Shown here piece by piece: positions 6,964 to 13,701 of a DNA stretch of 64,000 nucleotides; the stretch's first letter is position 1, and every line of letters starts with the position of its first letter. The stretch is from Streptomyces sp. NBC_01689 (GTDB taxonomy: Bacteria; Actinomycetota; Actinomycetes; Streptomycetales; Streptomycetaceae), in NCBI RefSeq assembly GCF_036250675.1, contig NZ_CP109592.1:8866001-8930000 (forward strand). Direction: 5' to 3'. The position numbers were made by a program, and so were the translations under genes. The notes under the pieces were generated by a model that worked only from the letters and a program-made list of their open reading frames with translations, did no database searches and was not told where the DNA came from.

Positions 6964-8232
6964 TCACCCGGCGCCGGGAGTCGGCTCGATGACGACCACC
7001 CGTGCCCACTCGGGCGGGGAGTCCGGGACGTAGTCGGGATCGTTCTCGTCCCACGAGTGGGAGTCGTGCCGCCGGGGGAACAGACCGACCACGGTCCGGC
7101 ACGGCGGCCGGTTCCTCGGCCAGGGCGTCTGACCGTCCGTCAGCACCACGACGACGTCGGGCCGGGGACCCCGGCGGAGAGCCCGGGCGAAGCCCGTCCG
7201 CAGGTCGGTGCCCCCGCCGCCGACCAGCGGAATGCCCTCGGCCCGGCAGAGCGAGTGCACGAGCCGGGCGGACGCGTCGCACGGCAGCACGGTGACGAGG
7301 TCGCGGCGGCCGCCCACCGCGCGGCAGATCGCCGTCACCTCCCGGAGTGCGCTGCCGAGTTCGGCGTCGCTGACCGACCCGGACGTGTCGATGATCACGG
7401 AGACCCGCGGAGGTCTGCGCCGCAGGCTCGGCAGGACGACACCGGGCAGCCCCGCCGAGCGCCGGGACGGCCGCCCGTACGTGTAGTCCTCGCCCGTGCC
7501 GGAGCCGGAGGCGGCCGAACGGACGGCCGCACCGAGCAGCTCCCGCCACGGCTGCGGTGGCTGGAACGCCTCCTCCGCCCAACGACGCCATCCCCGGGGG
7601 GCGTTGCCCGGACGCCCGGTGATGCCCCGCGCCACGCGGAACCGGACGGCGTCACGCTCCTGGTCGCTGAGGCCGTACGCTCCGTCCGGGCCGAGATCCC
7701 ATTCCCGGTCCAGTCCGTCGGCGCCGCTGCCGCAGTCCAGCCAGACCAGGCTCTGCGTGCGCGGCCCGAGCCGGAACCGGCGAAGATAGTCCTCCATGAG
7801 CTCACCCCCGGGCAGCGCCAGGGTCTCGGGGGTGACGGCACCCTCGGGCCGGAGGAGTCCCTCGCCGAACGCGTCGTCGTTGATCTCGCAGTCCGCCGCG
7901 ATGTTCATCCGCAGCCGTTCCCCCGGCCCGGTCAGACCACGCTCCCGCGCGACCCGGTCACTGCGCCCGTGATGGTCCCGCAGCAGGTGCGACACCTCGT
8001 GCACCCACACCCCGGCCAGCTCCTCCACCGACGTCCGGTCCACGAACGACGGCGAAACGTAGCAGCGCCAGTACCGGTCGACGGCCATCGTCGGCACCTG
8101 CCGCGACTCCACGGTGTGCAGGGCGAAGAGCGCCGTCGCCAGGTAGGGCCGGACCCGGGCGGCGTGCAGCCGTGCGGCGAAGAGCTTGTCGCGGTCCAGC
8201 GCCCGGGGCGCGCCCGGTCCGTACGCGTTCAC
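6964..8232 (-). CDS. VWA-like domain protein with N-terminal HExxH metallopeptidase-like domain (DUF2201-type)
   Basis: A 422-aa protein. The N-terminal domain has the zincin motif HEVSH in WVHEVSHLLRDHH (about residue 77), plus AADCEIND, as in putative metallopeptidase-like DUF2201 proteins. The C-terminal part is a von Willebrand A-like domain with the MIDAS signature DTSGSVSD (about residue 280), then GGGGTDLRTGF and VVVLTDGQTPW. The GTG start at 8232 overlaps the stop of the upstream AAA ATPase gene (GTGA), implying translational coupling and a working complex. In MoxR-vWA pairs the ATPase typically remodels or loads the vWA partner; here the vWA protein may also be a protease. No signal peptide. 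Confidence 0.88.
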   Translation of the reverse strand: MNAYGPGAPRALDRDKLFAARLHAARVRPYLATALFALHTVESRQVPTMAVDRYWRCYVSPSFVDRTSVEELAGVWVHEVSHLLRDHHGRSDRVARERGLTGPGERLRMNIAADCEINDDAFGEGLLRPEGAVTPETLALPGGELMEDYLRRFRLGPRTQSLVWLDCGSGADGLDREWDLGPDGAYGLSDQERDAVRFRVARGITGRPGNAPRGWRRWAEEAFQPPQPWRELLGAAVRSAASGSGTGEDYTYGRPSRRSAGLPGVVLPSLRRRPPRVSVIIDTSGSVSDAELGSALREVTAICRAVGGRRDLVTVLPCDASARLVHSLCRAEGIPLVGGGGTDLRTGFARALRRGPRPDVVVVLTDGQTPWPRNRPPCRTVVGLFPRRHDSHSWDENDPDYVPDSPPEWARVVVIEPTPGAG

Positions 8233-9479
8233 CGGCCGACCGGCACGGCGGCCGCGGCGCGGTCGGCCCGGCGGGACAGGGACACCGCTCCGGCGAGCTT
8301 GTCGATCGATGGCGGAACGTCCCAGTCCTCCCGGCGCAGGGAGGCGAGCGTGTTCGCGGGCACGACCACCAGGTCCGGGGCTCCGGTCTCCACCGCCCGG
8401 ACCAGGAGCTCCCAGGCCGCCTCCCAGCGTGACCTCTCCGGTCGTCCGCGGACCGCCTCCACCACACCGTCGAGCACGGCCTGGCGCAGATCCCCCCGTT
8501 CCGGCAGGACGGCGTTCGCCGGGTCGGCGAGCAGGAGTTCGGGGTCCGGGAGGTCCATCCGGTCGATGGCGGCCAGCAGTTCCAGCCCGGGGCCGTCCCC
8601 CACGGTGCCCCGGACCAGCAGGGAGAGCACTTCGCGGGAGGAGCCCGCGGCCGTCGCGAACGCGATCAGACGCAGGGTCGACTCCCAGCTCCGGGGTGAG
8701 GGCCAGGGGCCGCCCCTGCGTGTCTCGTCGTTGGGCAGGCGGTGCACGAGCCCGGGGCGCGCGGCGAGCAGCCCGCACACCGCGCGACGGGCGAACTCCA
8801 CGGCTTCCGGGAGCCGTTCGGGGTCGAGCCGCGGGAGCGTGGCCCGGGGCCAGGTCCCGCCGAGCCCGCGGACGACCACCTCGTGGTCGTGCGTCCACTG
8901 AAGATGGACGAACCGGTTGGCCAGGGGCGGGCTCAGTTCCCAGCCGTCGGCGGCGGAGGCACGCGGGTTGGCGGCGGCCACGATACGGACCCGGGGCGGG
9001 AGCCGCAGCGTGCCGATCCGCCGTTCGAGGACGAGGCGGAGCAGGGCGGCCTGCACGGCCGGTGGCGCGGTGGACAGCTCGTCCAGGAACAGCAGTCCGC
9101 TGCCGGCCCGGACCAGCCGCACCGCCCAGTCCGGCGGCGCCATGGGCACCCCCTGTTCCGCCGGATCGTCGCCGACGACGGGCAGCCCCGAGAAGTCCGA
9201 CGGCTCGTGGACGCTGGCGATCACCGTGGTCAACGGCAGATCGAGGGCCGCCGCGAGCTGGGTGAGCGCCGCGGTCTTGCCGATCCCGGGTTCACCCCAC
9301 AGCAGGATGGGCAGGTCGGCGGCCACGGCCAGCGTGAGGGCCTCCAGCCGGCTGTCGGGACGCGGTTCGGTGGACGTGTCGCGCAGCAGGCTCGACAACG
9401 CTCCGGCGACATCGAGTTGAGCGGGCCGGTCCGGTACGGCACCGGTTGCGGTGGGGCGGGATACGGCGGGTACGGGCAT
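8229..9479 (-). CDS. MoxR-type AAA+ ATPase
   Basis: A 416-aa AAA+ ATPase of the MoxR/dynein-like group. Walker A is GEPGIGKTAA (about residue 62), Walker B is LLFLDELSTAPPAVQAALL (about residue 130), and sensor-1 is VAAANPRASAADG. The C-terminal half has the helical lid and a longer extension than compact MoxR proteins (about 320 aa). It is co-directional with and coupled to the VWA gene downstream, the classical MoxR-vWA arrangement. The start at 9479 follows AAAGGTGATC. It is preceded by a 149-nt gap holding a 9-bp tandem repeat. Confidence 0.92.
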   Translation of the reverse strand: MPVPAVSRPTATGAVPDRPAQLDVAGALSSLLRDTSTEPRPDSRLEALTLAVAADLPILLWGEPGIGKTAALTQLAAALDLPLTTVIASVHEPSDFSGLPVVGDDPAEQGVPMAPPDWAVRLVRAGSGLLFLDELSTAPPAVQAALLRLVLERRIGTLRLPPRVRIVAAANPRASAADGWELSPPLANRFVHLQWTHDHEVVVRGLGGTWPRATLPRLDPERLPEAVEFARRAVCGLLAARPGLVHRLPNDETRRGGPWPSPRSWESTLRLIAFATAAGSSREVLSLLVRGTVGDGPGLELLAAIDRMDLPDPELLLADPANAVLPERGDLRQAVLDGVVEAVRGRPERSRWEAAWELLVRAVETGAPDLVVVPANTLASLRREDWDVPPSIDKLAGAVSLSRRADRAAAAVPVGR

Positions 9480-9545
9480 GAATGATCACCTTTGGGACGG
9501 GGGAGGGGTGGGCGGAGGAGTGGTGGGGAGACGGGTGTGATGGAG

Positions 9546-9581
9546 GAAGCCGGGGAAGCCGTGGAAGCCGAGGAAGCCGAG
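9546..9581. repeat. 9-bp tandem repeat, four copies, in the leader of the AAA ATPase gene
   Basis: Four units of GAAGCCGNG lie in the gap between the 496-aa gene and the ATPase gene. On the minus-strand transcript this is a pyrimidine-rich (CTTCCTCGG-like) stretch about 65-100 nt before the ATPase start. Confidence 0.75.
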
Positions 9582-9628
9582 GAGAGAGGCCTCGGGCACG
9601 GCGGAGGACGGAGGGACGGGCTCCTGGC

Positions 9629-11119
9629 TCAGCGGAAGGTCGCGTGGCGCGGGTGCGGGCGGCCGGGACCGGCCCGGCGAGAACCGCGGCGGACCCGATC
9701 GCCGTCGCGTCCCGACGCGGTGGCGAAGCCGGGTTCGGCGGCGAACCCGGGTCCGGTGCCGGGTCCGTCGCCGATCAGGCCGGCGCGGTAGAGGCCGTAC
9801 GTGATCCGCCCCCGCGCCGCCGCCTCCAGTTCGTCCCGCAGGGCTCCGGCGCGCAGCAGCGCGTCGGGGCCGAGCAGACCTTCGACGACGGCCAGGGCCC
9901 CCGCGGTGTCGCCGTGGTCCAGCCGCTCACGTACGCCGGCCAGACAGTCCGGACGGCGGTGTGCCGTGTCGATGGCGCGGAGGCAGGGAAGCGGGGTGCC
10001 GGTGAGCGAGGCCAGCAGTTCCTCGCGGCGGATCTCGTCCGGGTCATGGTCCAGCGGGGCCAGTACGCCGTCGACCAGGCCGATCCGGTGCTGCGAGCCC
10101 CGGCATTCGACGAGGTGCGGCTGTCCCCGCGGGTCCATGGGCGGGGGCGGGCGTACGGCGGACGGGCCCGGTGTCCCCGGTGCCAGCGCCGAGGCGACCA
10201 GCGGGTGCAGCCGGTCCAGCTCGATCGCGCCGGCGCGGATCAGGTCCAGGTCGGGCAGCACCCAGGTCGCCGCGTCGGGCAGGACCGGCAGGGTGGACGT
10301 GCCGGCCTGAGCGGACGAGGGCGCGATCCGTACCGGAGGCGGCCCGTCGCCGCCCGCGTCCCCGGCCAGGTGCAGCACCATCCGGTGCCGGGCCCCGATC
10401 CGCACGGAGACGGCGGCAGCGTCACTGCCGCTGCCGTGGGGCGGACCCTCGGCACGCAGCAGGATCGCCGCCTCGGCCGCCCATCGGCCGAGGGCGCACC
10501 GGTGCAGCCCCGGCACCCCGGCCAAGGCGTCCGTACCCGCCAAGAGGCCTTCTTCGGCTGTCAGTTGATCGGCACCGGAACGCGTCCGCAGTTCGTCCGT
10601 CCGCCGTGCGTCCCACAGGTGCCGGTGGAGATCGAGCCGGAACCGCCGGTCGGGATGAGGATGGGGGTGGCGACGGTCCCCGGCGTCGGGGCGGGAGGCG
10701 TCCCAGAGCGCGAGGCTGATCCGCTGGCCGGCGTCCGCCCAGCCCGGCGGGGTCCGTGCGACGAGGTGCACCGGGCTCGTACCGTCCCGTCCGGCACCGT
10801 CGTAGCGCGCCAGAGCGAGCGTCAGCCCGGGGCGCAGCAGCCCGTCCGGGGCGATCCTCGGCATGTGCCAGCGCAGCAGGTCGGGGGCGAGCCGGCGGAG
10901 ATCGGCCCGGATCTGGGTGGCGAGGTCCCGGCCGTGGGTGCGTGCCACCGAACGCGGGCCGAGGTCGACGTCGATACGCGCGGCGGCACACGCTCCCGCC
11001 CAGTCACCGGCCAGGCGGCGGGCGGTCGACGTCTCGATCATGGAGGGCGGCACGGCGAACTCGCGCACGCGCAGCCAGAGGGAAAGGCGGGTGTCCCCGT
11101 TCGCGGTGTGAGTGAGCAT
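9629..11119 (-). CDS. Hypothetical protein, third component of the MoxR-vWA cluster
   Basis: A 496-aa protein with no domain I recognise and no signal peptide or membrane helix. It begins MLTHTANGDTRLSLWLRV, has a mixed alpha/beta first half with WADAGQRISLALWDAS, and ends in an Arg/Gly-rich tail. Its position first in the run with the MoxR ATPase and VWA genes, all co-directional, suggests a dedicated partner, perhaps a substrate or effector. Known systems of this type (ternary vWA-MoxR-associated proteins) have a variable third protein. The ATG at 11119 fits AAGGTGA at 6-nt spacing better than the GTG at 11125. Confidence 0.7.
   Translation of the reverse strand: MLTHTANGDTRLSLWLRVREFAVPPSMIETSTARRLAGDWAGACAAARIDVDLGPRSVARTHGRDLATQIRADLRRLAPDLLRWHMPRIAPDGLLRPGLTLALARYDGAGRDGTSPVHLVARTPPGWADAGQRISLALWDASRPDAGDRRHPHPHPDRRFRLDLHRHLWDARRTDELRTRSGADQLTAEEGLLAGTDALAGVPGLHRCALGRWAAEAAILLRAEGPPHGSGSDAAAVSVRIGARHRMVLHLAGDAGGDGPPPVRIAPSSAQAGTSTLPVLPDAATWVLPDLDLIRAGAIELDRLHPLVASALAPGTPGPSAVRPPPPMDPRGQPHLVECRGSQHRIGLVDGVLAPLDHDPDEIRREELLASLTGTPLPCLRAIDTAHRRPDCLAGVRERLDHGDTAGALAVVEGLLGPDALLRAGALRDELEAAARGRITYGLYRAGLIGDGPGTGPGFAAEPGFATASGRDGDRVRRGSRRAGPGRPHPRHATFR

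Positions 11120-11424: not shown

Positions 11425-13701
<2,277 letters not shown>

Follow-up and report, generated by a model that had tools for sequence, protein, structure and literature searches.

The window analysed here, a stretch of 64,000 nt from Streptomyces sp. NBC_01689 (GCF_036250675.1, contig NZ_CP109592.1, positions 8,866,001 to 8,930,000 of the forward strand), carries three minus-strand genes that form a tight cassette in the order X, MoxR, DUF2201 protein. With a probability of about one half, and judging function from sequence comparison, we read this triad as an ATP-driven remodelling machine that would recognise its partners through a small C/H/H/C module and that would be peptidase-competent in the window. 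The features of the cassette are as follows.

6964 to 8232, minus strand: DUF2201 protein, 422 aa, N-terminal zincin-like and C-terminal VWA-like domain (PF13203 and PF09967 above cut-off)
7375 to 7389, minus strand: DTSGS, MIDAS of the VWA, DUF2201 residues 282–286 (DxSxS in 166 of 168 rows)
7987 to 8001, minus strand: HEVSH zincin motif, DUF2201 residues 78–82 (HExxH in all 159 readable rows of the X type)
8229 to 9479, minus strand: MoxR-type AAA+ ATPase, 416 aa (AAA_5 and AAA_3 above cut-off)
9078 to 9095, minus strand: Walker B LLFLDE, MoxR residues 129–134 (motif reading and alignment)
9273 to 9296, minus strand: Walker A GEPGIGKT, MoxR residues 62–69 (motif reading and alignment)
9629 to 11119, minus strand: X, the third component, 496 aa, no known family
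9785 to 9964, minus strand: C-terminal helices, X residues 386–445 (model and family comparison)
9965 to 10117, minus strand: C/H/H/C module, X residues 335–385 (invariant in alignments; beta-beta-beta-helix in the model)
10184 to 10555, minus strand: second helical-then-beta unit, X residues 189–312, ending in LHPLV (hhalign, ankyrin subtype)
10700 to 11092, minus strand: N-terminal helical-then-beta unit, X residues 10–140 (motif columns in 85 sequences; secondary structure of the model)

Coordinates, strand and overlap all bear out the preliminary description of a co-directional three-gene run in which the MoxR and DUF2201 genes share the start–stop overlap GTGA. X starts with the ATG at 11119; an in-frame GTG two codons upstream (11125) is a possible alternative, but leaves only 3 nt between itself and the AAGG box. 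Upstream of X, the gene at 11425–12900 is presumably argG, encoding argininosuccinate synthase. Among the named loci, the best 80 of at least 548 relatives, an argG match occurs near the triad in one, L142, where it is on the opposite side.

Homologues of X nearly always stand beside the same ATPase/VWA pair. The order X–MoxR–DUF2201, all on one strand, was found in 126 of the 139 loci in which an X gene was called, a count that covers calls of more than 300 aa and whose rows are partly non-independent, a few genomes being present twice in two overlapping collections. The 13 exceptions comprise seven contig ends, three of them with MoxR before the contig stops and four without it (L039, L135, L152 and L155), two loci with broken genes (L063 and L075), and four with an X but no pair nearby (L044, L045, L056 and L205). 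Of the 80 named loci, 77 have MoxR after X and 76 have DUF2201 after it; the loci that lack one break off at contig ends. Spacing is similarly constrained: the gap between MoxR and DUF2201 is exactly −4 bases in 96 of 126 loci, and that between X and MoxR is at most 200 bp in 120 of 129. Relatives of X are thus mostly found beside this pair, and the converse situation, with homologues mostly outside the neighbourhood, does not hold.

X itself, first described as a protein without recognised domains, matched no family in Pfam, NCBIfam or PHROG and no sequence in the PDB; the search of PADLOC returned a single chance-level row (E 0.15) and no credible match. The proposal that X is a ‘dedicated effector or substrate’ survives in its first word, X being a dedicated third component; an effector role finds no support in the Pfam, NCBIfam, PADLOC and PHROG searches, which matched no toxin or enzyme family. 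A RelE/ParE-like fold in X is a tentative structural lead. An AlphaFold2 model of X has a mean pLDDT of 79.7 and a pTM of 0.77, with low confidence for residues 446–496. The alignments of X, from which broken or partial copies (L046, L063 and L075–L078 among others) were excluded, show that the N-terminal unit is marked by the motif GDW..ACAAA...PDLLRWH.PR, invariant or near-invariant in 85 X sequences. The second unit may be a duplicate of the first that has since diverged, for hhalign matches 57 columns of the two in the ankyrin subtype (probability 67%, E 5.2e-5); within the window's own subtype, residues 189–312 are weakly conserved. A stretch matching residues 386–445 precedes the ankyrin repeats in the sister subtype. 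X diverges at roughly double the rate of its partners (mean identity 0.68, versus 0.84 for MoxR and 0.80 for DUF2201), and the distances of the three proteins are correlated (r 0.98 over 125 triads; 0.81–0.88 within the 106 window-type triads).

The C/H/H/C module is new here and was absent from the preliminary description. It spans ∼50 residues with the pattern C-x4-H…H…E…G…C, comprising a strand pair between the two H, an invariant E in the helix and a final C. The positions C339, H344, H358, E366, G374 and C379 are invariant in the 85 X sequences, and equally so in 32 diverse modules and in 19 small-partner and related proteins. In the model of X the module folds as beta-beta-beta-helix (residues 335–373), with C379 opening the next helix, and its residue pattern is probably that of a small metal site. 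The module recurs in partners that are otherwise unlike one another, namely the ankyrin-repeat form of X, small proteins of ∼280 aa and fusions to DUF2087. Indeed, the small partner of L196–L199 matches X in the module only (59 columns, hhalign probability 95%, E 3.8e-8).

Searched for in 394 genomes of Actinomycetes, the module was found at 56 places, spread over 46 genomes; 53 of these places adjoin a DUF2201 gene, 52 with MoxR too. The exceptions are an X in G419 (L205), which lies away from the full system of that genome, and two chance-level matches with no pair nearby, in G131 (E 2e-4) and G326 (E 5e-4), which were rejected. Rejected on the same grounds was one further match out of 28, in G566 (E 7e-4). 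Among genomes whose module match is strong, 43 of 44 have PF13203, compared with 63 of 394 overall (Fisher 9e-41, kinship being ignored); the odd genome, G412, has a VWA remnant only and no PF13203. Because X proteins supplied the sequences for the module profile, the nearness of X-type matches to the pair is partly by construction, and the independent cases are G158 and three distant genomes. These three, from a phylum sample of 306, carry eight, seven and two module genes and one PF13203 match each. Five of the 17 genes are beside the pair and 12 elsewhere, although some of the latter could be nearer to it, because the distant genomes are in short contigs. Two of the 17 have a C-terminal DUF2087, each in a genome with several further module genes.

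L319, 5683 to 6576: module–DUF2087 fusion
L321, 5505 to 6299: module–DUF2087 fusion

None of 14 other DUF2201-positive genomes gave a match in the module search. The pair therefore also works without the module, and the module is a trait of a single branch of DUF2201 systems.

Turning to the pair, MoxR scores above the Pfam cut-offs for AAA_5 (40.6 bits, cut-off 22) and AAA_3 (27.3 bits, cut-off 27), and below that for bpMoxR (17.6 bits, with 27 needed). Its partner, first described as combining a vWA with a zincin motif, does contain both, but it is a member of a known family: it scores 90.6 bits against PF13203, DUF2201_N, the ‘putative metallopeptidase domain’ (cut-off 23.2), and 53.4 bits against PF09967, VWA-like (cut-off 26.4), the latter domain extending to residue 415 of the 423-residue translation. 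There is in addition a weak sequence match to an M48 peptidase (E 0.041). In the MIDAS alignment, the two rows without DxSxS are gapped at the site.

The catalytic Glu of HExxH is kept in all 159 readable rows of the X type and lost in all eight rows in which a small partner takes the place of X, five of them (the split type) having HLTxH and the three distant ones HHxGH (HHVGH or HHTGH). Both His are retained in these rows, and the module-free DUF2201 relatives keep HExxH. In a tree built from MoxR and DUF2201 (25 rows), a branch (100/98) sets the eight small-partner rows apart, and the 14 X-type rows form a sister clade (100/100). Given this single split, the link between Glu and partner type counts as one event, and the loss of catalysis predicted from the motif tracks partner type as a single evolutionary split. 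The zincin domain of the window's subtype is, by the same residues, likely to be peptidase-competent.

The same pattern makes a maturation role of the metallochaperone type the main rival, because a clade that keeps both His of HxxxH and not the Glu is what one would expect of a site that holds metal. The MoxR–DUF2201 pair would then insert or remove metal at the C/H/H/C site of X, or mature that site in another way, much as NorQD serves its reductase, with X as the product rather than an adaptor and the zincin as a metal holder. We consider this unlikely. It gains from the occurrence of several module proteins per machine and from metal insertion driven by NorQD (PMC13036017); against it, the Glu is retained in every readable row of the X type, and metal binding by the module is itself a prediction.

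Three arrangements of the genes can be distinguished. Subtype (a), that of the window, is X–MoxR–DUF2201. In subtype (b), the ankyrin type, the order is LRR gene, X, MoxR, DUF2201, and X ends in ankyrin repeats. The LRR gene is confined to this subtype and often overlaps X by 4 bases, and LRR_6 was found in all 12 genes scanned of the 15 upstream genes listed. Pfam matches Ank_2 in 8 of 44 X members, and two or three X genes may occur in tandem (L203 and L204). In subtype (c) a protein of ∼270–340 aa replaces X, being divergent from the pair and accompanied by a second protein of ∼420 aa in L196–L199, and placed directly after DUF2201 in L277, L317, L322 and L325. We also observed a long relative of X (L045, 3593–7669), ∼970 aa from its likely start, with ankyrin-like and further repeated domains; MoxR–DUF2201 is absent within the 12 kb fetched around it. 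The genome of the window has, in addition, a second MoxR+DUF2201 pair of another kind and without X, whose genes share a 4-base overlap and encode proteins of 353 and 600 aa.

G000:C1:2650000-2665000 (L194, 6260 to 9120): second MoxR–DUF2201 pair

The ankyrin repeats and the LRR gene look like docking or recognition parts. An adaptor role for X is favoured because such repeat-type parts surround it in subtype (b), and a client role because module genes are scattered in the distant genomes.

The surroundings of the triad nearly always differ from locus to locus. The 109 upstream genes fall into 85 clusters, the largest of three genes, and the 104 downstream neighbours into 80, the largest of four; this clustering of the flanks gave no conserved fourth gene for the window's subtype. 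One family (L034–L037 and others) has a gene of ∼656 aa upstream of X, at least 400 bp away, which we assume to reflect shared synteny. Relatives of X lie on nine plasmid records of Streptomyces and Embleya, with the whole triad in each of the three regions opened, and one scan confirmed none in viral contigs among the matches listed. Degraded copies of the triad exist as well (L046, L063, L075 and L078). In L046 (6752–7639), ∼900 bases contain what remains of all three genes, namely the beginning of X, the last part of MoxR and the VWA portion of DUF2201, as if after internal deletions. The cassette is probably mobile. Although a quick tree placed Nocardia rows inside Streptomyces rows, we make no claim of transfer from it, because a constraint holding the Streptomycetaceae together was not rejected (30 rows, AU p 0.122), and horizontal transfer between genera was dropped as a tree-based claim.

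The variable location and the plasmid copies plausibly fit a role in anti-phage or other conflict, in which X, with its LRR or ankyrin parts, would sense an invader and the AAA+/zincin machine would respond. The degraded copies, and a patchy distribution in which X has a relative in 43 of 100 related genomes (own genome counted), point the same way. However, PADLOC matched the triad to no known defence protein beyond chance, with MoxR matching other AAA+ models weakly, and the tree test gave no significant transfer between genera. We regard a conflict role as doubtful. The patchiness and the ever-changing location, unlike those of housekeeping genes, weigh in turn against a stress chaperone serving the envelope or the proteome, for which X would be a scaffold without a special target. 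This we consider quite improbable, even though the second pair of the genome lies beside genes that presumably encode Hsp70 and OsmC. Chaperone roles are described for MoxR proteins (PMC11432383).

In the preferred reading, the triad as an ATP-driven remodelling machine, MoxR would be the AAA+ motor, presumably a hexamer. The DUF2201 protein would couple the predicted zincin domain, with its intact HExxH, to a VWA whose MIDAS, by analogy with NorQ/NorD, may hold the partner. X would be the machine's own partner, docking through the C/H/H/C module, while the rest of it (the N-terminal units and, in the sister subtype, the ankyrin repeats with the LRR protein) would capture or present a target. 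Because the zincin of the window's subtype is likely to be peptidase-competent, the probable output there is ATP-dependent processing, putatively proteolytic, of X or of its cargo. In the small-partner clade, where the Glu is gone, the pair would act as a remodeller only, with several module-bearing clients. Against this reading stand the four loci with X but no pair nearby and the 14 DUF2201-positive genomes without a module match, and the contact of the module with the VWA or MoxR is one that we infer. The fuller picture, possible but tentative, is of a split, modular ATP-driven metallopeptidase or remodeller for which the module is a portable client tag. The machine would be catalytically dead and serve many scattered clients in some actinobacteria, and would be an active peptidase in Streptomyces and its kin, with X, borne on the cassette, as its single dedicated client or adaptor.

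MoxR–VWA machines are widespread, and how most of them find their targets is unexplained. The module, in combination with a catalytic Glu that is gained or lost in step with partner type, offers a testable handle, and a list of module proteins is a list of candidate clients. On this reading Streptomyces would have a split AAA+/zincin machine, for which we know of no role in the genus.

Our literature search found no description of the X–MoxR–DUF2201 triad. The closest known relatives are the DUF2201 family (PF13203 plus PF09967), to which the window protein belongs by the Pfam cut-offs and which has the same two-domain protein with a nearby MoxR gene, and the phage copies of DUF2201 (phrog_1314) with MoxR (phrog_1297), found as a DUF2201 relative in 87 phage records. 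The third genes of the phages differ. Synechococcus phage MinM2 has MoxR, a DUF3150 protein and a VWA-like protein in a gene row. Several phage relatives, such as OQ594354.1 (L246), are annotated as HNH or homing endonucleases, which contradicts their DUF2201 match. FtsH-like ATP-dependent zinc proteases combine an AAA+ motor and an HExxH zincin in one machine, whereas the motor and the putative zincin of the triad are encoded by separate genes of other families, and proteolysis is predicted.

The vWA–MoxR ternary conflict systems, with VMAP, iSTAND, FtsH or beta-propeller components, share with the triad the cluster of MoxR, vWA and third protein and, as far as the available text of PMC7159879 goes, also actinobacterial occurrence and variable sites. 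In the same text these systems have variable effector domains C-terminal to the vWA, unlike the window's DUF2201 protein, which ends at its VWA-like domain with no effector domain after it, and that text has no mention of DUF2201. Pfam matches of 44 X members included no family of the VMAP, iSTAND or beta-propeller type. The link to these systems drawn in the preliminary description thus extends to a cluster of MoxR, vWA and a conserved third protein, but not to variable effector domains after the vWA.

CbbQ/CbbO and RavA/ViaA likewise consist of a MoxR AAA+ protein and a partner whose VWA/MIDAS is directed at a third protein. These pairs and NorQ/NorD differ from the triad in that their targets are respiratory enzymes or rubisco, and the available excerpts do not call the partner proteins DUF2201 zincins. 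NorQ/NorD, too, has a MoxR AAA+ protein and a VWA/MIDAS component that acts on a third protein, and there, according to PMC9976466, it is the MIDAS of the VWA, not the ATPase, that binds the target.
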